Assembly (NCBI GenBank): GCA_032622095.1
Contig: CP136065.1
Location: 37,792,732-37,856,731 of the forward strand
Direction of reading: 5' to 3'
Source: Siphonodentalium dalli
Lineage: Eukaryota > Mollusca > Scaphopoda > Gadilida > Siphonodentaliidae
DNA length: 64,000 bases
Position 1 is the first letter of the stretch, and every line of letters begins with the position of its first letter. Both the position numbers and the translations under genes were made by a program. Below the pieces are notes generated by a model. That model did no database searches and was not told the DNA's origin. It saw only the letters and a program-made list of their open reading frames with translations. Positions 22,092 through 64,000 of this stretch are shown here, piece by piece.

Positions 22092-22514
22092 GGCCCGTTC
22101 CAAACGACGGATTTTTGTCGACTCGAATCTAATTGTATTAAATCCGTCGGTGATGCGTCTGCGGTCAATTTTGTTTGAGACGGACGCATCTTTGTCGCGT
22201 CGAATCTAATACCTCGGTCGATTTATTTAAAGGTGCACTCCATGTTACCTTCACAAAATGGTCACGCGTACATATAGAGGCCTATATATACCGGTATGTT
22301 ATACATATATATAGTAAAATACAGTATAAATTATGTATAAATATATGCGCGATTGCAGCGCGAATATATGTGCATATGTATATGAGGATGTATATAGTAC
22401 ATATAGTTATATAATATAATATAATAGGCGCTACAAATAAATGTTAGATCGTGCAACCAATTGCCATATATGTGTATACCATGCATGTAAATACAGGTAT
22501 ACAAGTATTAGTAT

Positions 22515-23195
22515 AAATCAGAGACTACCACCCCTACCCTTATAATAAGGAATACCGGAATATATGAATTATTATAAATAAGAGGTTACCACCCTATACC
22601 CTCATAATAAGTAATGCCGGTATATATGAATTATTATAAATAAGATCAGTGGTACCACCCCTACCCTTTATAATGAGGAATACCGGAATATATTAATTAT
22701 ATATTATAAATCATAGGCTACCACCTATATATCCTTTATAATAAGGAATACCGGTATCTATGAATTATTATAAATCATAGGCTACCATCCCTACCCCTCA
22801 TAATAAGTAATACCGGTTTATATGAATTATTATAAATCTGAGGCTACCACCCCTACCCCTTATAATAAGGAATACCGGTATTTATAAATTATTATAAATC
22901 ATAGGCTACCACTCTGCCCCTTATAACAAGTAATACCTGAATATATGAATTATTATAAATAAGAGGTTACTACCCCTTTACCCCTCATAATAAGTAATAT
23001 CGGTATATATGAATTATTATAAATCAGTAGTACCACCTCTGCCCCTTATAATAAGTAATACAGCTAAATATTAATTATTATAAATCAGAGACTACCACCC
23101 CTATTCCTTACAATAAGGAATATCGGTATATATGAATTATTATAAATCAGTTGCTACAACCCCTACCCCTTATACCGGTATATATGGATTATTCT
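22515..23195 (+). repeat. Array of about 64-bp units in left arm, about 11 copies
   Basis: The unit contains CTACCACCCCTACC, TTATAATAAGGAATACCGG and TATATGAATTATTATAAAT. Units differ by substitutions and small indels. The right arm holds about eight units in reverse orientation. Confidence 0.85.
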
Positions 23196-23739: not shown

Positions 23740-24250
23740 ATAGTATCAATGATTTATAATAATTCATATATGCCGGTATAAGGGATATTTGTTGTAGCAA
23801 CTGATTTATAATAATTCATATAGACCGATATTCCTTATTGTAAGGGATAGGGGTGGTAGTCTCTGATGTATAATAATTAATATATACCGGTATTACTTAT
23901 TATAAGGGGTAGGGGTGGTACCACTGATTTATAATAATTCATATATACCGACAGTACTTGTTATGAGGGGTAATTGGGTGGTAACCTCTTATTTATAATA
24001 ATTCATATATTCCGCTATTACTTATTATAAAGGGCAGAGTGGTAGCCTATGATTTATAATAATTTATATATACCGGTATTACTTAGTATGAGGGGTAGGG
24101 ATAGTAGCCTATGATTTATAATAATTCATATATACCGGTATTCCTTATTATAAAGGATATAGGGTGGTAGCCTATAATTTATAATAATTAATATATTCTG
24201 GTATTCCTTATTATAAGGGGTTGGGGGTGGTAGTCTCTGATTTATATTAA
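23740..24250 (-). repeat. Array of about 64-bp units in right arm, about 8 copies
   Basis: This is the reverse complement of the left-arm array, with words ATTTATAATAATTCATATA, CCGGTATTACTTATTATAA and GGGGTGGTA. The unit number differs from the left arm, showing expansion or loss after the arms formed. Confidence 0.85.
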
Positions 24251-24676
24251 TTATAGTATACCGGTATTTACATGCATGGTATACACATAGATGGTAATTG
24301 GTTGCACGATATATAACATTTATTTGTAGCGCCTATTATAGTATATTATATATATGTATGTATACTATATACATCCTCATATACATGATCACATATATTC
24401 GCGCTGCGGTCGCGCATATATAAATATATACATAATTTATACTGTATTTTAGTATATATATGTATAACATATACCGGTATATATAGGCCTCTATATCTAC
24501 GCGTGACCATTTTTTTACGGTAACCGGGAATTGACCTTTAAATAAATCGACCGATGTATTAGATTCGACGCGACAAAGATGCGTCCGTCTGTAACAAAAT
24601 CGACCGCAGACGCATCACCGACGGATTTAATACAATTAGATTCGAGTCGACAAAAATCCGTCGTTTGGAACGGGCC

Positions 24677-27760: not shown

Positions 27761-28489
27761 AACACCACGACACATTATGATGTGAAGCCACAATATATAC
27801 CGTATGGCGATTAGAACTTCAGGGTCGGAAATGAGGTAGTATAGAACACAAAGTGTCAAACCATACTTAAAATAAATTGGCAAAGCCATGCAAATATACC
27901 GTGAAAAGTGTTGAAAAGTTCACCCACCCGTTCCCCGTTTGGCGTCCAATGTGGACACTTGGCGAACAAGCCCGCATAAATGGTCGAGGAATTAACTTTG
28001 TCTGTTAAATCTCTATTTTGTTGTTTTGTTGTTTATGTTCTACCAACAGCATTCAAAGTGGGTGCGTGAAAAATAACATAAATTGTATAGATAACTGTCT
28101 GCCTTTCCGCGCGCCATTTATTTACTAGTTCTCCTTGATACGTCCATTAATACAAAGCTTTGGAAATTTGTATCGTTAATCTTGTTTGCGTGCTTAACCC
28201 TTTCAATACTAAATACGTATTGACGATTAGTTCCCTTGAGATATGTTCATATAATAAGTTCAACAAAGGACCATATAGGTCGTTTGTTGAACTGTAACCA
28301 AACAGTTCCCACCAATGAATATAACTGTATTATCTGTATGGCTGTCTGTCATCTGCTTGTGTTACATGAACACCGATCTCAATGAATAATATAACAGTTC
28401 GATGTATACTTTTATAATGAGAGACTCTATCCAGTATAGAATGTGTTAAACAGTGCCTACATTGACAAAGAAAAATACATGTATAGACA
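27761..28489. other. Unassigned sequence
   Basis: No feature was recognised apart from general AT richness. Confidence 0.4.
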
Positions 28490-28739
28490 TATATATACCA
28501 AAAAACTCAATTTTGTTTGTTTATTCGTTTGTTTGTTTGTCCGCTTGTAGGCAACCAAACGGCTGGACCATCGGAGCTGAAAATTTTATATACATGTAGG
28601 TGTAATTTGACCCGGGGAGCGTTATTAGATAGGTACAGTTCACCTCAAATGTATTAAAGGGGCACTAATAATTATTTTATATATATTTTGGCTAGAGGCG
28701 ACCAAACGGTTCCATCCTCGGAGCTGAATTTTGTTTTAC
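28490..28739 (+). mobile_element. Helitron-like 5-prime fragment
   Basis: GTTTGTTTGTCCGCTTGTAG, ACCAAACGGCTGG and TTTGACCCGGGGAGCGTTAT closely match 36440-36560, the start of the complete Helitron at 36425. It contains one full internal subunit (28530-28680) and the start of a second, in which the 41-bp array begins. Confidence 0.75.
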
Positions 28740-31700
28740 GTATGGGTAATATCACTCGAGGATCTTATTATTTTGTTTATGTATGGGTAATATCACTCGA
28801 GGAATCTTATTATTTTGTTTATGTATGGGTAATATCACTCGAGGAATCTTATTATTTTGTTTATGTATGGGTAATAACACTCGAGGAATCTTATTATTTT
28901 GTTTATGTATGGGTAATATCACTCGAGGAATCTTATTATTTTGTTTATATATGGGTAATAACACTCGAGGAATCTTATTATTTTTGTTATGTATGGGTAA
29001 TATCACTCGAGGAATCTTATTATTTTTGTTATGTATGGGTAATATCACTCGATGAATCTTATTATTGTTTTTATGTATGGGTAATATCACTCGAGGAATC
29101 TTATTATTGTTTTTATGTATGGGTAATATCACTCGAGGAATCTTATTATTTTTGTTATGTATGGGTAATATCACTCGAGGAATCTTATTATTTTTTTTAT
29201 GTATGGTTAATATCACTCGAGGAATCTTATTATTTTGTTTATGTATGGGTAATAACACTCGAGGAATCTTATTATTTTGTTATGTATGGGTAATATCACT
29301 CGAGGAATCTTATTATTTTGTTTATGTATGGGTAATAACACTCGATGAATCTTATTATTTTGTTTATGTATGGGTAATATCACTCGAGGAATCTTATTAT
29401 TTCGTTATGTATGGGTAATATCACTCGAGGAATCGTATTATTTTTTTATGTATGGGTAATATCACTCGAGGAATCGTATTATTTTGTTTATGTATGGGTA
29501 ATATCACTCGAGGAATCTTATTATTTTGTTTATGTATGGGTAATATCACTCGAGGAATCTTATTATTTTGTTTATGTATGGGTAATATCACTCGAGGAAT
29601 CTTATTATTTTTGTTATGTATGGGTAATATCACTCGAGGAATCTTATTATTTTTGTTATGTATGGGTAATATCACTCGAGGATCTTATTATTTTGTTTAT
29701 GTATGGGTAATATCACTCGAGGAATCTTATTATTTTTGTTATGTATGGTTAATATCACTCGAGGAATCTTATTATTTTTTTATGTATGGGTAATATCACT
29801 CGGGGAATCTTATTATTTTTTTATGTATGGGTAATATCACTCGAGGAATCTTATTATTTTGTTTATGTATGGGTAATATCACTCGAGGAATCTTGTTATT
29901 TTTTTTATGTATGGGTAATATCACTCGAGGAATCTTATTATTTTTGTTATGTATGGGTAATATCACTCGAGGAATCTTATTATTTTTGTTATGTATGGGT
30001 AATATCACTCAAGGAATCTTATTATTTTGTTTATGTATGGGTAATATCACTCAATGAACCTTATTATTTTGTTTATGTATGGGTAATATCACTCAAGGAA
30101 TCTTATTTTTTTTTTATGTATGGGTAATATCACTCAAGGAATCTTATTATTTTGTTTATGTATGGGTAATATCACTCAAGGAATCTTATTTTTTTTTATG
30201 TATGGGTAATATCACTCGAGGAATCTTATTATTTTTTTATGTATGGGTAATATCACTCGAGGAATCGTATTATTTTGTTTATGTATGGGTAATATCACTC
30301 GAGGAATCTTATTATTTTGTTTATGTATGGGTAAAATATCACTCGAGGAATCTTATTATATTTTTTTTATGTATGGGTAATATCACTCGGGGAATCTTAT
30401 TATTTTGTTTATGTATGGGTGATATCACTCGAGGAATCGTATTATTTTGTTTATGTATGGGTAATATCACTCGATGAATCTTATTATTTTGTTTATGTAT
30501 GGGTAATATCACTCGAGGAATCTTATTATTTTGTTATGTATGGGTAATATCACTCGAGGAATCTTATTATTTTTTTTATGTATGGGTAATATCACTCGAG
30601 GAATCTTATTTTTTTTTTTATGTATGGGTAATATCACTCGAGGAATCTTATTATTTTGTTATGTATGTGTAATATCACTCGGGGAATCTTATTATTTTGT
30701 TATGTATGGGTAATATCACTCGAGGAATCTTATTATTTTTTTTATGTATGGGTAATATCACTCGAGGAATCTTATTATTTTTTTTATGTATGGGTAATAT
30801 CACTCGAGGAATCTTATTATTTTGTTATGTATGGGTAATATCACTCGAGGAATCTTATTATTTTGTTATGTATGGTTAATATCACTCGAGGAATCTTATT
30901 ATTTTTTTATGTATTGGTAATATCACTCGAGGAATCTTATTATTTTGTTATGTATGGGTAATAACACTCGAGGAATCTTATTATTTTGTTATGTATGGGT
31001 AATATCACTCGAGGAATCTTATTATTTTGTTATGTATGGGTAATATCACTCGAGGAATCTTATTATTTTGTTATGTATGGGTAATATCACTCGAGGAATC
31101 TTATTTTTTTTGTTTATGTATGGGTAATATCACTCGAGGAATCTTATTATTTTGTTATGTATGGGTAATATCACTCGAGGAATCTTATTATTTTGTTTAT
31201 GTATGGGTAATATCACTCGAGGAATCTTATTATTTTGTTTATGTATGGGTAATATCACTCGAGGAATCTTATTATTTTGTTTATGTATTGGTAATATCAC
31301 TCGGGGAATCTTATTATTTTGTTTATATATGGGTAATAACACTCGAGGAATCTTATTATTTTGTTATGTATGGGTAATAACACTCGAGGAATCTTATTAT
31401 TTTGTTTATATATGGGTAATAACACTCGGGGAATCTTATTATTTTGTTTATATCTGGGTAATAACACTCGAGGAATCTTATTATTTTGTTATGTATGGGT
31501 AATATCACTCGAGGAATCTTATTATTTTTGTTATGTATGGGTAATATCACTCGAGGAATCTTATTATTTTTGTTATGTATGGGTAATATCACTCGAGGAA
31601 TCTCATTATTTTGTTTATGTATGGGTAATATCACTCGAGGAATCTTATTATTTTTTTATGTATGGGTAATATCACTCGGCGAATCTTATTATTTTGTTAT

Positions 31701-33308
31701 GTATGGGTAATATCACTCGAGGAATCTTATTATTTTTGTTTATGAATGGGTAATATCACTCGGGAATCTTATTATTTTGTTTATATATGGGTAATAACAC
31801 TCGAGGAATCTTATTATTTTGTTATGTATGGGTAATATCTTCGAGGAATCTTATTATTTTTTTTTGTATTGGTAATATCATTTAGGGAATCTTATTATTT
31901 TGTTTATGTATGGGTAATATCACTCGGGGAATCTTATTATTTTGTTTATGTATGGGTAATATCACTCGAGGAATCTTATTATTTTGTTATGTATGGGTAA
32001 TATCACTCGAGGAATCTTATTATTTTTTTATGTATGGGTAATATCACTCGAGGAATCTTATTATTTTGTTATGTATGGGTAATATCACTCGAGGAATCTT
32101 ATTATTTTGTTATGTATGGGTAATATCACTCGAGGAATCTTATTATTTTGTTATGTATGGGTAATATCACTCGAGGAATCTTATTATTTTTTTATGTATG
32201 GGTAATATCACTCGAGGAATCTTATTATTTTGTTATGTATGGGTAATATCACTCGAGGAATCTTATTATTTTTGTTTATGTATGGGTAATATCACTCGGG
32301 AATCTTATTATTTTGTTTATATATGGGTAATAACACTCGAGGAATCTTATTATTTTGTTATATATGGGTAATATCACTCGAGGAATCTTATTATTGTTTT
32401 TATGTATGGGTAATATCACTCGAGGAATCTTATTATTTTGTTATGTATGGGTAATATCACTCGGGGAATCTTATTATTTTGTTTATATATGGGTAATAAC
32501 ACTCGAGGAATCTTATTATTTTGTTATGTATGGGTAATAACACTCGAGGAATCTTATTATTTTGTTATGTATGGGTAATAACACTCGAGGAATCTTATTA
32601 TTTTGTTATGTATGGGTAATATCACTCGAGGAATCTTATTATTTTTTTTTGTATTGGTAATATCACTTGGGGAATCTTATTATTTTGTTTATGTATGGGT
32701 AATATCACTCGGGGAATCTTATTATTTTGTTTATGTATGGGTAATATCACTCGAGGAATCTTATTATTTTGTTATGTATGGGTAATATCACTCGAGGAAT
32801 CTTATTATTTTGTTATGTATGGGTAATATCACTCGAGGAATCTTATTATTTTTGTTTATGTATGGGTAATATCACTCGAGGAATCTTATTATTTTTTTTA
32901 TGTATGGGTAATATCACTCGAGGAATCTTATTATTTTTTTATGTATGGGTAATATGACTCGGGGAATCTTATTATTTTGTTTATGTATGGGTAATATCAC
33001 TCGAGAAATCTTATTATATTTTTTTTATGTATGGTTAATATCACTCGAGGAATCTTATTATTTTTTATGTATGGGTAATATCACTCGAGGAATCTTATTA
33101 TTTTGTTTATGTATGGGTAATATCACTCGAGGAATCTTATTATTTTTTTATGTATGGGTAATATCACTCGATGAATCTTATTATTTTGTTTATGTATGGG
33201 TAATATCACTCGAGGAATCTTATTATTTTTGTTATGTATGGGTAATATCACTCGAGGAATCTTATTTTTTTTTTTATGTATGGGTAATATCACTCGAGGA
33301 ATCTTATT
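28740..33308 (+). repeat. 4.6 kb minisatellite, about 110 units of 41-42 bp
   Basis: The unit is TATGTATGGGTAATATCACT followed by CGAGGAATCTTATTATTTTG plus 1-3 T. It is repeated head to tail with few substitutions and variable T runs. The CTCGAG core is nearly invariant. The flanking sequence shows the unit arose from one internal segment of a Helitron-like element: the single-copy counterpart is at about 36522-36560. Long open frames on both strands (GNITRGILLF, WVISLEESYYF, NKIPRVILPIH) are by-products of the period. No sign of transcription is visible. Confidence 0.95.
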
Positions 33309-33700
33309 ATATATGTCCCGTTGACATCAGATGTCTTAAAACGGCACTAATAAGTATTTTATGCCTCTAATTTATATATGTGCTATATGCAGTGTTTTTT
33401 TGTTTCAAATATGATTGTAGGCCTTTAATTTATCTATGTACTATACGGAGTTTGTTTGTGTTTTCGGTTCGAACATTTCTGTAGAATTTCAATTTATCTA
33501 TGTACAATGTGGAGTTTGGTTTCTCTTTCGTTTCAAACATTATCGTATGGCTTTACTTGATCCATTTTCCATATGGATTTTTTTTTTCCGATCCAAACAG
33601 TATCGTATGGCTTTAAAATTGATCTATGTACAATATTTAGTTTGCTTTGTTTTCATTTCGAATATTATTGTAGGCCTTTAATTTATCTACATTGTATGTA
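33309..33700 (+). repeat. Helitron remnant, then 70-bp-class repeat (short block)
   Basis: It begins ATATGTCCCGTTGACATCAG ATGTCTTAAA, matching 36555-36585, then passes into units with TAATTTATCTATGTAC, GGAGTTTG and TTTCGTTTCGAACATTAT. The block is paralogous to about 34345-34700, offset by about 1007 bp. Confidence 0.75.
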
Positions 33701-33810: not shown

Positions 33811-34084
33811 CGCATTTATTTTATTTTGGCCTTACTTACAGACCGACAGTCAAACATTATATTATATAATCCATATATAAAACACAATAATATATAATAT
33901 TATAACGTAACAATATACATTGAATAATACAGATAATATACAAATTACACTCCACTTCAGTTACGTCTACGGTTTACACGACACTATATTAATTAATGAA
34001 CAATTTACAACCAAATTATGATTGATTTAATACATATGTTATCGACATGGCATGTACATCCTTGTTTATGTTATGTGAATTGTT
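33811..34084. other. AT-rich spacer
   Basis: Dominated by ATAATATA-type words. No feature was recognised. Confidence 0.4.
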
Positions 34085-34703
34085 TGTTCTTTTCGTTTTT
34101 GCACAGGCCTTTAATTTATCTATGTACCGTATGGAGCCTGTTTTATTTTCGTTTCGAACATTATTGTAGGGGCTTTAATTTATTTATGTACCATATGATG
34201 TTAGTTTTTTAAGTTTCTCATATTATTCTAGGCCTCTCGTCTATTTATGTACCATGTGGAGTTTGGATTATCGTTTCAAACATGATCGATTGGCATTAAT
34301 TTATCTATGTACCATACAGAGTTTTTTTTTCGTTTCGAAAATTATTTTAGGCCTCTAATCTATATATGTAATATCTGCAGTGTGTTTGTTTTTTCGTTTC
34401 AAATATGATTGTAGGCCTTTAATGTATCTATGTACTATATGGAGTTTGTTGGGTTTTTCGTTTCGAATATTTCTGTAGACCTTCAATTTATCTATGTACA
34501 ACGTGGAGTTTGGTTTTTTCTTTCGTTTCAAACATTATCGTATGGCTTTATCTATTTTCCATATGAAGTGTTTTTTTGTTGTTTTATTTTTTTGTTTCCT
34601 TCGAAACAGTATCGTATGGCTTTAATTTATCTATGTACCATATTTAGTTTGCTTTGTTTTCGTTTCGAACATTATTGTAGGCCTCTAATTTATCTACATT
34701 GTA
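34085..34703 (+). repeat. 70-bp-class minisatellite downstream of the Mab-21-like gene
   Basis: About 8-9 diverged units contain TAATTTATCTATGTACCATA, GGAGTTTG and TTTCGTTTCGAACATTATTG. It lies where the 3-prime UTR of the minus-strand gene should be, so the transcript probably includes part of it. It is duplicated, with the gene end, at 33360-33810. Confidence 0.8.
34583..34588 (-). terminator. Candidate polyadenylation signal
   Basis: AATAAA on the minus strand, about 130 nt past the stop codon of the Mab-21-like gene, lying inside the 70-bp repeat. It is the closest exact match seen by eye; other variants are possible. Confidence 0.3.
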
Positions 34704-34719
34704 TGTACCATGTGAATGA

Positions 34720-36231
34720 TCAGATAATCGCATCATATGCAAAAAACTCGCCATTCGCCAGTTCATTAAAGAAATCTGGAGCTTTGCTTTTTATCCCAGA
34801 TAATTTATTAACAATATTTTGACACTTATTGATTGGTGTACGATCCAGCAGGTTCATTTCTCGTACAAAATAATGCTGCAATTTTTTTTCTCTATATGCT
34901 TCAATTAGAACGTTTACTAAAGTTTCAAGGTTATTGAGTAATTTGTCGTTGGTCCAATCAGCAGGATCGGCACGTTCACACACCCAAAGGAAAGCTGTTC
35001 TCAGAAAATAAGATCTAATGTCATCGTCTTTGTCTTTTTCATCGTCGTCAACGGCGGATTCAACGCCGTATTTCACAAGGATTTTGAACGCCTTATAACA
35101 TAACTTTTGAACTTCACTCAAGCTTTGGCAAAGTTTGAATTCTGCCCGTGCAAATGATAGGTACCATTCCGATTCATCCGCATCATGCTTAGGTGACGGC
35201 TTCCCGACCAGGTTGAATCCCTCCTTTGCTATGATACAGACAGTCTTCTTTGACGGCCAATTCCGATCCCGACTGATCCATTCTTCAGCAGGTCTAGGCC
35301 AACCGCTGACATAGAATGCAGCAATCCAATCGACAGAGAACTTCGGCATAAAATCTGACAGTAATTTTGCAATAACTTTTGTCGGAAGTGTTGCACCATC
35401 TGACAATATATCATTCTTATATGGCAATAAATTTTTAATAACTTCTTTCTCAATTGAGGATCCAAAGAACGTCATTTTAAAAATTGATTGTTCCAAGGAG
35501 CCCCGATTAGTGTAAATGGTGTCTACGAGCAAAACGTCTGACAAGAATTTTGTAATATCTGTTTCCGGATCTGAAGTATCGAGCACCACGCTGAACAGAC
35601 CAATAAATTGAAGACCTATATGCAAAAACTGGTCCTTTTCGGCTTCGGAGTATTCTTCCTCCCATATTTTTATTTCTTTTAGATCAGTTTCTGTTGTGCC
35701 GTTATCTTGGGTCAGCTTCCCTCCGGTCTGTTTTATAGCTCTCTTCAGAAGATAAATACATTTGAAAATTTCGGGCAATTTGTGAAGCCACTCGTCAAAT
35801 TTGTAGCCCTGTATCCCCCCTTCTTGCCTATTATATTTATAGAGACCCGCTATTTCATATAATCTGAGACTCAGAGCTGACGTGTTGCTCAACATCATTG
35901 TCCTATTGACGAATGCTCCTCCATCTACAAGACATTTGCAATGGCAAGGAAATTTATCGTCGTATACAAAATTTGCTTCTTCAATTTTATTTTCAAGAAA
36001 ACTCTGACTGTTTGTAATCATAAAATCTATGTCGCCAATATCACCTTCTTTGCTAAGTTTTAAGCCATCGCGACTGCTCCCACAAACTGTAATTTGGTCC
36101 GGATTTGATCCTAATAACTCAAATCCAAACTTGGCTATGATCGCGATCCCTTTATTCAGTTTATATGATCTATTATCACCAACTTCTGCATTGAGGATCT
36201 TACGTGATATCAGCTCTGCTAAGTTAGCCAT
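34720..36231 (-). CDS. Mab-21 domain protein, cGAS-like receptor candidate
   Basis: An intact single-exon frame of 503 residues. The first ATG is at 36229-36231 with good context (GAAATGG); the frame extends 3 codons upstream only to a TTG. Motifs in order: nucleotidyltransferase GSSRDG at 51-56; metal-binding DID at 67-69 followed by FM; third carboxylate D301 in VDWIAAFY; the Mab-21 signature WPRPAEEW-x2-R-x-R-x-WP at 311-326; SEWYLSFARAEF at 354-365; and the helical C-terminal part with SYFLRTAFLWVCE (407-419) and HYFVREMNLLD (453-463). All three catalytic acids are present. Proteins of this fold include cGAS and animal cGLRs, which make cyclic dinucleotides on sensing nucleic acid and signal through STING; other Mab-21 proteins have no known enzyme activity. 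Molluscs carry large families of such genes. There is no signal peptide, transmembrane segment or extra domain, so it is likely cytosolic. Ligand, product and expression cannot be read from sequence. Confidence 0.9.
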   Translation of the reverse strand: MANLAELISRKILNAEVGDNRSYKLNKGIAIIAKFGFELLGSNPDQITVCGSSRDGLKLSKEGDIGDIDFMITNSQSFLENKIEEANFVYDDKFPCHCKCLVDGGAFVNRTMMLSNTSALSLRLYEIAGLYKYNRQEGGIQGYKFDEWLHKLPEIFKCIYLLKRAIKQTGGKLTQDNGTTETDLKEIKIWEEEYSEAEKDQFLHIGLQFIGLFSVVLDTSDPETDITKFLSDVLLVDTIYTNRGSLEQSIFKMTFFGSSIEKEVIKNLLPYKNDILSDGATLPTKVIAKLLSDFMPKFSVDWIAAFYVSGWPRPAEEWISRDRNWPSKKTVCIIAKEGFNLVGKPSPKHDADESEWYLSFARAEFKLCQSLSEVQKLCYKAFKILVKYGVESAVDDDEKDKDDDIRSYFLRTAFLWVCERADPADWTNDKLLNNLETLVNVLIEAYREKKLQHYFVREMNLLDRTPINKCQNIVNKLSGIKSKAPDFFNELANGEFFAYDAII

Positions 36232-36353
36232 TTCACACAATATGTCAACGTACTGCCGGAGCTAATCTTCAGTGTCCAAATAAATGGAATTAACATAGCA
36301 GTGAACAGACAAGGCAGGTATCTGCGAGCTTGCGTTGTTAGTCGTTGAGTTTC
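36232..36353 (-). other. Probable 5-prime UTR exon part of the Mab-21-like gene
   Basis: On the minus strand, a pyrimidine-rich tract ends in TTTTCCAATTACAG at 36354, a good splice acceptor, about 122 nt before the ATG. This suggests that a non-coding first exon lies further upstream, beyond or within the neighbouring Helitron. No TATA box was identified. Confidence 0.4.
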
Positions 36354-36424
36354 CTGTAATTGGAAAACAATCACACACATATACACGATTCTAATGTTAA
36401 ATAACATATCATTTACTCACATAA

Positions 36425-39373
36425 TCTATACTAATAACACTCAGTTGTGTTGTTCGTTTGTTTGTTTGTCCGCTTATAGGCGACCAAACGGCTGGAACAT
36501 CGGAGCTTGAAATGTGTATATAGGGGTAATTTGACTCGGGGAGCGTTATTATATATGTCCCGTTCACCTCAGATGTCTTAAAGGGGAAATAATAATTATT
36601 TTATATATAGTTTGGCTATAGGTGACCAAACGTTTGGATAGTCGGAGCTGTAAATTTGTATATAAGAGTAATTTGACCTGGAGAATCTTCCGTTGACCTC
36701 ATATTTCTTAACAGTGCAATAATAATTTATTTAACAAAATAATTAATTTTATCCCCAAAATAGTTGCAATCTTGTCGGTGAAAATTGAACAAAACTGAAG
36801 CACGGTGATAAATTGACCCGTAGCGTGTAATGATATAGATTATGTTGACCTCAGACGACATAAAGGGGCAAATATGAGCAATAAAGAGTGTTCTTTGTCA
36901 GCTTAGAAGATATGTATGAAAATTGGCACAGATGGGTAACATGGCCAGGGGATTATCATGGAAAGGCACATTTGATCTCAGATGACATAAAGGGGACTAA
37001 TAAATTATATGATCAATAAAGAGCGTTTATTATCAGCCCAGACGATATGTGGGTCAATTGGTGCACAAAAGTAAAACTACGCGCGGATTGTCACGGGATA
37101 GGTGCTCATATGACTTAGAGAGGCACTAATAAATGGCAATAAATAACGTATATTATCAACATAAAATATATATTTAACTTTACCCGGAAAGTCATGCAAT
37201 ATGGGATGTTATATTCATCAAACTTAATATCTTACTTTATGCAGATGATACAATTATTTAAGCTGAATCTTCAGATGAACAACAGTTAGTATTTAACGCA
37301 TTCTCTGGGAGCTAAAGATTAATGTAGAGAAAAGCAAAACGATAATCTTTGGAAGAGGAAGACGTTGTATAAAAAAGTATTTATTGTCAATGGCAGAATA
37401 ATTGAAACTGTTGATGAATTCAAATACCTTGGTGTTTTATTCTCGAAGACAGGTACATTCTTCAAAGCGAAAAACCAGCTAATATCCCAGGCAAATAAGC
37501 CCATGTTTTCTGCTATTCGTCTTTGTAGACAGAATAGGTTAACTCTCGATTGTCCGTTTGATCTTTTTGATAAGTTAATTCTCCCCATAATTACATATGG
37601 ATGTGAGGTGTGGGCCACACTAATACAAATATGATTGATCAATTATATATGAAATTCTTGAAATTCATATTAAAACTAAGGAATAACGCTTGTGATGCCA
37701 TGATATATGGCGAGACAGGCAGATTCCCTATTTCTATATCTATAAAACTCCAGATGATTAAATATTGGGCCAAAGTTGTTACTGGACCTGATAGAAAGCT
37801 GTCTCGTATATTATTTGAATACATGTATGTGCATCATAATATGCATATGTAAAAATACCCGTGGCTACAAGGAATTCAAGATATATTGAATTAATGTGGC
37901 TTATCCCATATTTGGTATAACTACCAGAATGTATCTGTGGATAGCTTAGCAAAGCAAAACAAACCTGGATGTCTAATGTATGAACTCACCAAAAGCTGAC
38001 ACGTATAGGGTTTATAAAGAGACATTTGGTATGGAAAAGTATCTCCTTAGCTTAGACTATGCAAATTCTATATCTATGCTGAGATTCAGAATCTCAAATC
38101 ATAAGCTTCCCATTGAAACTGGCCGCTGGTCGAGAACTCCGATGAATGAACGTTTATGCACTTTGTGTGATTTAGGTGAAATTGGTGATGAATATCACTA
38201 TATTTGTAGATGCCGTGTCTTATCAGATAAGAGGCTACAATATTTGGACAAAGAATTTAGAAACAGACCCAGTGTTTTTAAGTTTAAAGAACTAATGATG
38301 CGAACCGATGTTAAGTCCATGAATTCTCTCAGTAGGTTTTTTAGGGTGATCGATCGGCTATTCAGTCATTGACAATTTGTTGTAGCTGGGTGGGCGATCC
38401 GCCGCCCTGAGAGATTTGCTGGGGGAGTCCATGGATGTCCTGTGGGACCAATTGACACCCAATCAATGAAATAAATATATATATAAGTGTGTATCACTAA
38501 AGTTGCCTTATTTCAAGTCGCATACCACTAAAGTATCGGTGGCCCACACTAACTGACAGTAACAATTAGTAATCTATTTTAAGGCATATTTATTGATTTA
38601 TTAGTTTCCTAATTTAATATTAAAAAAAAGAAGAAAAAAGCTATTATTATCCTAATCGAAATGAGGTTACTATCGACGTTTACTAATAATACGTAAATCC
38701 ACACGTGCTGTAGTATTTCTGACAAACAAACACGTAAATATTATATTTATCAACAAATGTGTAAAATCACACTGTTGTAGTATTTCTGGTCCTATTGATA
38801 ACAAAACGTAAATTTTTATTCGCCTAGTTCAGGGCACCCGATATCGTAAAGCCATTTTGATTGGTAACCTGTGTACCTTATTTGAATAAGATGCTACGAT
38901 GGTGCATTCTGGGACTGATTAATTATAGTCTGTATATGGATTATATCGACTTCAGAAGACAACATTGACATACTTTTAAATTATATATAGTCTTTTTCTG
39001 TAATAACGAACCGTACGTTCTGAAATGTTGGAATGGGCTACCGATACAACCACATATTTTATGCTACATGAGCATTATATATACACTTACCGGTATAATT
39101 ACAGTTAGTTATACTCAATTGTGCCGAATTTATCTATTTGCTACGTAATTATCTATATACAACCTACATACCCCTGTCTTACAGGGACGCCGCTAATTTA
39201 ATTTATTTTTGTAATTCTTTTTCACCATTTGTACCACGATTGTGGTTTATGTGAATAAACAATTTGACTTGACTTGACTTACCCCAGGTGACTAATAATA
39301 ATTTAAAATGACTTGAATGGCCACTAATAAATTTCGCATTCTTCACCCGAGCAACGCCGAGTACCCCAGCTAG
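36425..39373 (+). mobile_element. Non-autonomous Helitron with nested LINE
   Basis: It starts A|TCTATACTAATAACACTC and ends GCAACGCCGAGTACCCCAG-CTAG|T, matching Helitron ends (5-prime TC, 3-prime hairpin and CTRR, insertion between A and T). The inner part holds diverged units of about 140 bp, each with ACCAAACG or CAGATGACATAAAGGGG and AATAAAGAGCGTT words. A LINE is inserted at about 37200, and Helitron sequence resumes near 39287 (CCCCAGGTGACTAATAATAA). It has no Rep/helicase. Confidence 0.8.
37200..39286 (+). mobile_element. LINE (RT and C-terminal region), 5-prime truncated pseudogene
   Basis: YADDT, the RT catalytic motif, is at 37238-37252, followed by a stop at 37259. Then come NVEKSKTIIFG, DEFKYLGVLFSKTG, LPIITYGCEVWA and, in another frame, MLRFRISNHKLPIETGRW with C-x2-C-x11-H-x4-C (about 38155-38210). 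There are several stops and frameshifts. It may end with AATAAACAATTTGACTTGAC and a (TTGAC)n tail at 39250-39286; the 38470-39240 part is non-coding and may include another insert. Same family as the minus-strand fragment at 25265-25830. Confidence 0.8.
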
Positions 39374-61299: not shown

Positions 61300-64000
61300 T
61301 TTGATATTTAGGGGGCTCGTATTTCCGGGTATAATAACTAAGTGAGTTTTCGAACTGGTGAAGAGATAATTTTCAGGACACTCATGTTGATTGGTGTGTA
61401 CATGTTATACATGTAAAGACTTTTCTAAAAGGAACCAGTTTTTCGAAAATTCATCTTGTTTCGATTGTCATCGTGCGGTATACTTCTCACATTGGTATCT
61501 ATAAGCCATAGCGCGGCATGTTCGTTGTAAAGTCCGGATCCGTTGGTGACGAGCCGAGAATAATTGTCTTTTGTTGGGGACAGAGATCAATGCTGTTAAT
61601 TTCCGCCAATCGTTGAATTCCTTTATGAATTCCTGAACGTGAACACAATTCCAAAATATGTGGGAGGTGTCTTCTGTCACGCTTTTACATCTGTCACATT
61701 TATCATCCTGTCATAAATTGGACATTTTGAGAAACTTGTTACTTGACAATAATCGTTAAATTATTCGGAATTGCAGCAATTTCAGCTTCGTGCCAGGCGT
61801 CGTGAGAAGGGAATGTTATCCAGTTTGCAACAATTAATTATGTTGTCGGGAAATAACACTTGCCATTTTCTGCGTGCTACAGTATAACTTGGAATTGCGA
61901 TTAAAATTTTATAAAAGTCTTGTCCTCCTCGATAGTTTTTAAGCAGTCTAATGAAATTATTTAGTAAAATGGTGGTGCCGGTTCGAGTTATATGCTGTTC
62001 AAGTTTTTTGCAAGTAATGTTGGATGTTATTATGGGTGATGAAGTTTGGGTGTATGGTTTCGATCCTCGGTAAATTGTCCCGTGTAAGAAAATAACCATT
62101 ATTGTCCAGTATATCATTTAAAAAGATAACCCCTATTTCTCGCCAGGAGGGGAAATGTATTACTTTTCCGTACTGCTTTGTATTTGTGTTATTCCATAAC
62201 GTACATGCTGATATTTTGCAATTGCTTCTATCTTTCTCCATAAATTTTGTATATACCATCAGGATCATGCCATGCCATGTTTTTCTATCACTTGGAACTT
62301 TTTGTTTCATGGACATCATAAAATGGTTTACATCAGCCATTTTTAATTCGCCATTCTTATAATCCTGACATATTACTTTACATTTTACTCTATCACCCTT
62401 AGAGTTCCAGAGAAAATTAAAGAGCATTGTGTCATAATCTTTCACAAAAACATTACCGGGATTTAGGAGAGCTACAAAAAGGTGTGTTAATTTTGGAAGT
62501 ACCAGTGATTTTATCACCGTTATTCGACCAATGGGTGTAAGTAACCGGTGTGTCCACGTTTCTATCAAACGTTTGATTTCAGCAAGTTTTATATCATAAT
62601 TTATTTCCATTTTGTCAAGGTTGGTATCAAAGTGTATTCCAAGGAGATTGAAAGTACTATTAAATTTTAGTCCAAGGTCTGGGCACATAATATCTATACG
62701 TCCAGTGTGAGAGCCAATCCACGACGCCTGACACTTGCTAGGGTTCATTTTCATGCCTGAATAATCTGCAAATAAGTTTAAAACAGTATATACTTCCCTA
62801 AGACTTTCTTCGCTGTCGTCTAAGAAGAGCGTCGTGTCGTCTGCATACTGTGTAATTTTGTATTCTAATTTGCCGAGGTTAACACCTTTAGTGCGGTAAT
62901 TAGATTTTATCCTAATATTCCACGCATATCAAAAACATATAGGGCGAGACTTTGTCACCCTGTCGGTAGCCACGATGTATTTGAAACTCTGAGATATATG
63001 CCCATTTATTAAAATAGAGGAGTTGATAATCGTGTAAAATATAGAAATCCACCTTTTCATGTCATCTCCAAAATTATAAAGTTTAAGGCATTTATGTATA
63101 AATTTCCAATACTGAATCAAAAGCCTTTTCAAAGTCTAGGAGGAGCAGTAGCCCAGATTTACCGGCAACTTTCGTCTTGTGAATGAGATCATTTGTAAGT
63201 CTAGTATTGTCTCCGATTGTTTTGAGAATCCCGTTTGAGCCTCACGTTTTAATCTTTTAGCTATACACGAAGATATGTTCAAGAGCGAAATTGGTGGCCA
63301 GTTTTTCAGATGATGTCCTTCTTTGTCTTTTGGTGGGGTCAGAGTAATAATACCCCTTGTTTCTGTGTGATCCCCCTTTATCAAAAGCTTCATTGAATGA
63401 TTCACATAGAGTTTGGTCTATGTCTATGTCTATCCAGAAATTTTTCCAAAACTCATATGGCTATCCATCTAGACGATGCATTTATCATTTTGTTTCAATG
63501 CGCACGTCAGTTCAGTTAGAGTTATTGGCTCTTCTGTGATGTTAGCAATGTCATTTGACAATACTGTATGGTCTTTTTCAAGAAAAGCATGAATATCAGA
63601 ATTGTTTGTATTTTTTATGTATATAAATTTTCGTAAAAACTTCTAGCTTCGTGCATTATGTCTGATTGACTGTCAATGTTTTTTCCCCGGTGGAGTCGGT
63701 GAGGTTGCATAGAGTTTTCGATATAGAATTGCGTTTTTCAAGATTGAGGAAATATTTTGTTAGTTTTTCACCTTGTTCAATCCATTTGCTTCTTGGTCTT
63801 ACCATTGCCCCCCTCGTGTCTTATTTTCTTATCTCGTAAAGGTCTTTTGTATTTGATCCAGTAATTCGTCATTATTATCTATTTCAATTTCGAGCAATAG
63901 TTTAGATCTATTCAGTTCATTTTCTTTCATCTTTCGTTCTTGCTTTCGTTTCGACGCAAAATGTATGGTCTCGCCTCTAATATCGAGCAAAAGAGTGTCT
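61300..64000 (-). mobile_element. L1/Tx1-type LINE, RT and C-terminal region, decayed, runs off window
   Basis: Read from the right on the minus strand: an RT start with NWPPISLLNISSCIAKRLKR and QTGFSKQS (about 63240-63330); then KFIHKCLKLYNFGDDMKRW and SSILINGHISQSF (about 62980-63100); the catalytic QYADDTTLFLDDSEESL (YADDT at 62832-62846); MKMNPSKCQASWIGS; GLKFNSTFNLLGIHFDTNLD; LTPIGRITVIKSLVLPKLTH; LFNFLWNSKGDRVK; and a C-terminal knuckle with KCDRC...DTSHIFWNC near 61640-61710. This block order is typical of L1/Tx1-clade elements. Several frameshifts and stops break it. The 5-prime part lies beyond the window. Confidence 0.85.

Follow-up and report, generated by a model that had tools for sequence, protein, structure and literature searches.

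A single-exon gene in the genome of the scaphopod Siphonodentalium dalli probably encodes an active cGAS-like cyclic-dinucleotide synthase, a member of a diversifying subfamily with an unusually long spacer between the second and third catalytic acids, and perhaps one that does not sense nucleic acid. Judged by its sequence, the gene carries the parts of a cGLR together with a match to PF03281, and departs from two parts of the strict motif of Li et al. 2023 (PMC9980059), namely the length of the spacer and the Gln/Thr before GS. The gene lies in a window of 64,000 nucleotides, the whole stretch of DNA that was analyzed, which corresponds to C5:37792732-37856731 in a genome of 2.23 Gb in 9 contigs.

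The Gene and Its Paralogs

The first-pass annotation of this DNA had described an intact frame of 503 codons, and the description was borne out: a single open frame runs from ATG to TGA on the minus strand (36231..34720) and specifies a protein of 503 residues. A chance frame is excluded by the match to the Mab-21 family and by the existence of no fewer than 17 other copies in the genome. Upstream, a putative AG acceptor stands 122 bases before the ATG. Of the 18 copies, 15 were aligned over this site, and 14 of these retain it, as TACAG in 13 and as TATAG in L041, whereas L042 lacks it. The features of the gene are as follows.

34720..36231, minus strand: coding sequence, 503 codons plus TGA in a single coding exon, of a cGAS-like (Mab-21 family) protein
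36232..36353, minus strand: presumed 5' untranslated part of the coding exon, with an in-frame stop upstream of the ATG
36354..36355, minus strand: putative 3' splice acceptor AG (TTACAG/GAA) of an upstream intron, from the alignment of 15 of the 18 copies
36073..36081, minus strand: G51-S52-S53, activation-loop GS motif of the nucleotidyltransferase, G51 and S52 being invariant in 12 of 12 aligned paralogs
36025..36033, minus strand: D67-I68-D69, predicted first and second catalytic acids, D67 and D69 being invariant in 12 of 12
35344..35727, minus strand: extra stretch between acids 2 and 3, residues 169-296, differing among copies in both length and sequence, with inferred limits
35329..35331, minus strand: D301, predicted third catalytic acid, aligned with cGAS and 8gjy and invariant in 12 of 12
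34801..35103, minus strand: Mab-21_C helical domain, residues 377-477 (PF20266, E 1.1e-17)

A genome search with the protein found at least 94 matching stretches; the counts of stretches and copies are lower bounds because 85 of 195 candidates were scored. Among the stretches listed, 30 belong to gene copies with an N half, of which there are at least 18, distributed over five chromosomes (six on C5, four on C2, three each on C4 and C6, and two on C1). Thirteen of the 18 are open and five are broken (L006, L014, L018, L021, and L024). The alignment used throughout comprises 12 open copies, the broken ones having been left out; the thirteenth open copy, L043, stands outside it, its motifs having been checked by eye only. 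The other 11 aligned copies are 34-79% identical to the protein described here. A 10-residue acidic insertion in the C-domain, at about residues 391-401, is common to this protein and the broken copy L018 and is missing from the 11 remaining aligned copies, a distribution that may reflect gene conversion.

This genome holds a very large, largely single-exon cGAS-like repertoire, and the count is a lower bound. At least 64 other cGAS-like stretches cover about residues 280-490 only and belong to other cGAS-like genes, many of them lying within single open frames of 400-800 codons.

Catalytic Residues and Domain Matches

G51-S52, D67/D69, and D301 are present and numbered as originally annotated, and these five residues are invariant in all 12 aligned intact paralogs. 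In alignments with cGAS and 8gjy, D301 falls on the acid of their 'sVD' strand, while D67-I-D69 sits 14 residues after S52, a spacing that is identical in every one of the 12 copies. The motif published for cGLRs consists of G[S/G], in its strict form h[QT]GS, followed by [DE]h[DE] 8-20 residues after GS, and four cGLRs that were assayed require the active-site motif for activity (PMC9980059). The protein described here has both the G[S/G] activation loop and an [DE]h[DE] within this distance. The position before GS, given as Gln or Thr in the strict form, is occupied by Cys in 11 of the 12 paralogs and by Val in the remaining one.

Assignment of the two N-terminal motifs draws on a comparison of profiles. 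An N-half profile built from 11 of the 12 copies (L005 left out) was aligned with a profile of the N halves of eight other cGAS-like genes, a selection from those in this genome, giving an hhalign value of 95.7% (E 8.8e-9) and pairing GS with GS and D67-I-D69 with the DxD of those genes. Controls remained far lower, with 2.1% for the best of 60 column shuffles and 0.0% for the reversed profile. This link covers residues about 46-106 only, and when the full family profile was set against the eight-gene profile, the C half alone was aligned. A profile search of the PDB with the N half returned no nucleotidyltransferase and only chance-level matches (best E 0.099). Pfam gave the same half a weak match to DNA_pol_B_palm, the DNA polymerase beta palm, over residues 46-83 (E 0.11, below the cut-off). 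AlphaFold2 run on the single sequence yielded a mean pLDDT of 37.9 and a pTM of 0.26.

The C half is more readily placed. The Mab-21 profile search that had been proposed as a check matched both Mab-21 and Mab-21_C: Mab-21_C (PF20266) covers residues 377-477 (E 1.1e-17), and the Mab-21 nucleotidyltransferase match spans residues 298-367 (E 5.1e-13), which is the second half of the catalytic domain only. The score for PF03281 (Mab-21) was 50 bits against a curated cut-off of 24.1, and all 12 aligned paralogs gave a Pfam Mab-21 match at E 0.01 or better. The cGLR superfamily has been described as the clade with the Mab21 Pfam domain PF03281 (PMC10732462).

Among PDB chains, the closest in a single-sequence search was 8gjy, "cGAS-like receptor 1" (E 2.1e-17), followed by cGAS chains and then by MB21D2 and Mab21L1. 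Searching with the family profile instead changed the order to 8gjy (4.9e-25), MB21D2 (3.4e-19), Mab21L1 (2.1e-17), and cGAS (9.2e-15), all four matches extending over the C-terminal half. The first-pass annotation had proposed an active cGAS-like synthase as opposed to a dead Mab-21 relative, and this proposal is upheld in part. The three acids, the lack of a zinc ribbon, and a cGAS-like receptor as the best PDB match favor it, whereas MB21D2 and Mab21L1 outrank cGAS when the family profile is used. The stated lack of a zinc ribbon was itself confirmed, as the cGAS chains compared carry extra residues and a Cys pair after the LSF strand and the present protein has none. According to Li et al. 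(PMC9980059), it is not clear if proteins related to Mab21L1 produce nucleotide signals at all.

Searches of other collections gave little. There were 20 pattern matches in viral_contigs and 51 in genome_contigs, with no relative confirmed in either; the phages collection gave no match, PADLOC gave only a weak match to HEC-02B (E 0.018), and Rfam at the gathering threshold found nothing within the 64-kb window.

The Long Spacer

The spacer between acids 2 and 3 measures 231 residues in this protein and 180-243 in the 12 aligned copies, against the 50-90 residues published for cGLRs (PMC9980059). The third acid is present, yet all 12 copies lie outside that published range. The eight other cGAS-like genes compared have spacers of 78-115 residues, three of them exceeding 90. 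The excess lies mainly within residues 169-296, a stretch whose length differs between copies. Pfam gave no match to this stretch in the present protein or to its counterpart in L017, and the extra stretch of L007 had only a chance-level match to Vps55 (E 0.089). The extra stretch would help in sensing or regulation. A literature search found no long-spacer subfamily in the titles or abstract beginnings listed, a result that does not prove its absence.

A long spacer may distort the catalytic core, and this bears on the main rival to an active synthase, in which the protein would be a scaffold with a cGAS fold that binds partners, for example a TBK1/IKK-type kinase, its acids being kept for folding or nucleotide binding. 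Three shrimp Mab21 proteins provide a precedent: they are reported to bind neither dsDNA nor dsRNA, to form no detectable cGAMP, and to activate IKK-epsilon (PMC12928593), although that study allows for different ligands or products. The second and third places taken by MB21D2 and Mab21L1 in the profile ranking point the same way. Against it stands the invariance of five catalytic-motif residues across 12 diverged paralogs, and a non-catalytic scaffold is considered unlikely.

Acidity, STING, and the Ligand

The predicted isoelectric point of the protein is 5.23, and the 12 aligned copies range from 4.87 to 6.68, although bulk pI is a coarse proxy and may hide a local basic groove; taken alone, residues 1-168 of the protein have a pI of 7.6. 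Acidity is not peculiar to the subfamily, as four of the eight other cGAS-like genes compared also have a pI below 6. The ligands known to activate cGLRs are dsDNA and dsRNA, and those cGLRs that sense nucleic acid have a pI above 8.5; certain acidic cGLRs need no added ligand for activity, and non-nucleic-acid ligands have been proposed for the acidic, auto-active ones (PMC9980059). Because of its acidic charge, the protein is suggested to respond to a ligand other than long dsDNA or dsRNA.

A candidate receptor for a cyclic dinucleotide is encoded in the same genome. Eight exons matched STING_LBD, all eight over the cut-off; seven lie on C8 (118.3-151.4 Mb) and the other is at C9:20.1 Mb. 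These matches suggest several STING genes on C8.

The protein could instead be a canonical sensor of dsRNA or dsDNA that makes an isomer of cGAMP or of cUMP-AMP and is ordinary in everything but length. The known activators of cGLRs (PMC9980059) and the identity of the closest PDB chain, a cGAS-like receptor, agree with such a sensor, but the pI of 4.87-6.68 in all 12 copies contrasts with the value above 8.5 of nucleic-acid sensors (PMC9980059), and the zinc ribbon is absent. We regard this explanation as quite unlikely.

Selection on the Subfamily

Codon tests were performed on 11 of the 12 copies, L028 being left out for saturation of its synonymous sites. Codon columns were kept if present in at least 6 of the 11 copies, which retains 92 of the 128 columns of residues 169-296; the code for the codon models was purpose-written, with branch lengths held in proportion. 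Pairwise dN/dS against L009, L003, L004, and L017 ranged from 0.74 to 1.00, and the one-ratio value for the family was 0.68. The branch leading to this gene had a dN/dS of 0.79, which could be told apart neither from 1 nor from the value for the family (lnL -8054.34 with the ratio free, -8054.79 with it fixed at 1, and -8054.55 at the family value).

Among site models, the comparison of M1a with M2a produced an LRT of 21.2, the largest LRT in 40 null simulations being 7.12, although gene conversion between copies could inflate this test. The positive class has an omega of 2.5 and comprises about 10% of codons, and the constrained class has an omega of 0.14 and comprises 38%. G51, S52, D67, D69, and D301 fall in the constrained class with posteriors of 0.86-0.98, while eight sites of this protein have a positive-class posterior of about 0.8 or more, two of them (116 and 122) at 0.95 or above. 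Mean omega is 1.03 over residues 169-296 (92 columns), 0.81 before them, and 0.69 after them. Some sites in the subfamily thus show positive selection.

The open frame carries information of its own. When neutral drift was simulated for two close paralogs to a divergence of 0.08 substitutions per site, less than 1% remained stop-free, and the branch of this gene measures 0.084 substitutions per site. The open frame therefore speaks for selection, which the own-branch dN/dS alone does not. These figures weigh on the idea that the gene is a recent copy heading for decay, intact by chance and under no selection of its own. An own-branch dN/dS not separable from 1, five broken copies out of the 18 (at least) found, and repeats in the intron and flanks are all compatible with it, but there is no stop in 503 codons, whereas neutral drift at its divergence predicts about 5, and both the catalytic residues and the splice acceptor have been kept. 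Incipient decay is very unlikely.

Flanking Repeats and the Mode of Duplication

The gene had been described as embedded in mobile DNA, between a Helitron and a Helitron-derived minisatellite. The flanking features are as follows.

About 36425..36659, plus strand: start of a repeat element (the Helitron of the first-pass annotation) in the presumed 5' intron, placed by eye
28487..33362, plus strand: second copy of the repeat element, with an internal minisatellite of 42 bp x 110 (28728-33310), from repeat comparison
34105..34550, unstranded: 64-bp tandem repeat 3' of the gene, with matching sequence also next to L029-L033 and L039
33718..33825, minus strand: duplicated fragment of the 3' end of the gene, 36 codons (residues 468-503), 69% identical

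This description was borne out in part: both sides carry copies of one repeat, the putative Helitron (36419-36659 and 28487-28734, 82% over 251 bp), with the 42-bp minisatellite inside the second copy, and repeats occupy the presumed intron as well as the flanks. The gene is nevertheless no stray, being one of at least 18 dispersed copies. As to the statement that everything around it is decayed, Pfam was applied to 10 other frames (nine of the 30 other frames of at least 110 aa and one shorter frame), and a single match was obtained, to a reverse-transcriptase fragment. This fragment lies at 61999-62928 on the minus strand (RVT_1, E 5.4e-7). Near the upstream repeat, two short frames at 37365-38372 on the plus strand resemble, by eye, the end of a LINE reverse transcriptase; neither had a Pfam match at E 0.01. 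Elsewhere in the window, two tandem arrays, at 22490-23174 (62-bp period) and 23794-24268 (125/186-bp), stand about 600 bases apart, and their units look by eye like reverse complements, possibly marking a large inverted structure or a mobile element.

The upstream repeat starts about 70 bases beyond the splice acceptor. Since it lies beyond this conserved acceptor, it is probably located in the gene's own 5' intron. It is common to this gene and to L029, L030, and L031, the last of which is on another chromosome, and because four copies have it in common, it seems older than those duplications. Homology of L029, L030, and L031 to the window extends from about 33890-33945 to 36556 or further and takes in the 3' tandem repeats; other copies match over a shorter stretch. 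The copies keep the splice acceptor, the sequence beyond it, and the 3' flank, which indicates duplication at the DNA level; retroposition as the mode of copying is disfavored on the same grounds. It is extremely unlikely that the gene is cargo spread by a Helitron-like element and not a host gene merely hit by one: the repeat abuts the gene and is common to four copies, but the element starts about 70 bases past the acceptor and seems to extend outward from the gene, the homology of L032, L033, and L036-L039 to the window stops at the edge of the element or close to it, and several copies also have the 3' tandem repeats in common.

Proposed Mechanism and Implications

For the active synthase, which is the reading we favor, we infer catalysis, product, coupling to STING, class of ligand, and location in the cell. 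The protein would be an intracellular cGAS-like enzyme switched on by ligand binding. With two metal ions bound, its GS loop and the D67/D69/D301 triad would link two NTPs to form a cyclic dinucleotide, which would then be read by one of the host's STING-type receptors. The subfamily of at least 18 copies, 13 of them open, would have spread through DNA-level duplication.

A bolder version may be entertained, tentatively and with considerable doubt. It holds that these genes form a distinct subfamily in which a module of about 100 residues between acids 2 and 3 is ligand-facing and changes fast in the at least 18 copies, the proteins being acidic sensors of something other than nucleic acid that feed cyclic-dinucleotide signaling. 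On this view, searches that use the published spacer (PMC9980059) would discard this class of sensors.

The published catalog of animal cGAS-like proteins was curated with a spacer of 50-90 residues (PMC9980059), and the subfamily described here lies well outside this range with its catalytic residues kept. If the synthase is active, its catalytic core tolerates a large insertion. Activity would also make the 13 open paralogs a panel in which to look for ligands besides nucleic acid, a question left open in PMC9980059.

Comparison with Known Systems

The closest resemblance is to the cGLRs of Li et al. 2023 (PMC9980059) and to 8gjy, with which the gene has in common the Mab-21 nucleotidyltransferase and Mab-21_C domains, the GS loop, and the acid triad, although the sequence match to 8gjy is limited to the C-terminal half. 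Like those cGLRs, it belongs to a large gene family in a genome that also encodes STING; unlike them, it has a spacer of 231 residues instead of 50-90 and a Cys before GS, and its acidity matches only some of them. Among these are the coral Pd-cGLR and other acidic, auto-active cGLRs, for which a low pI, down to 5.0, has been reported (PMC9980059). The third-acid strand and the helical C-domain align with those of vertebrate cGAS, from which the protein differs in its acidity, in the lack of a zinc ribbon, and in the extra stretch within its core. MB21D2 and Mab21L1 give significant profile matches in the C half (E 3.4e-19 and 2.1e-17), but these are weaker than the match to 8gjy and, in the single-sequence search, rank below the best cGAS chains.
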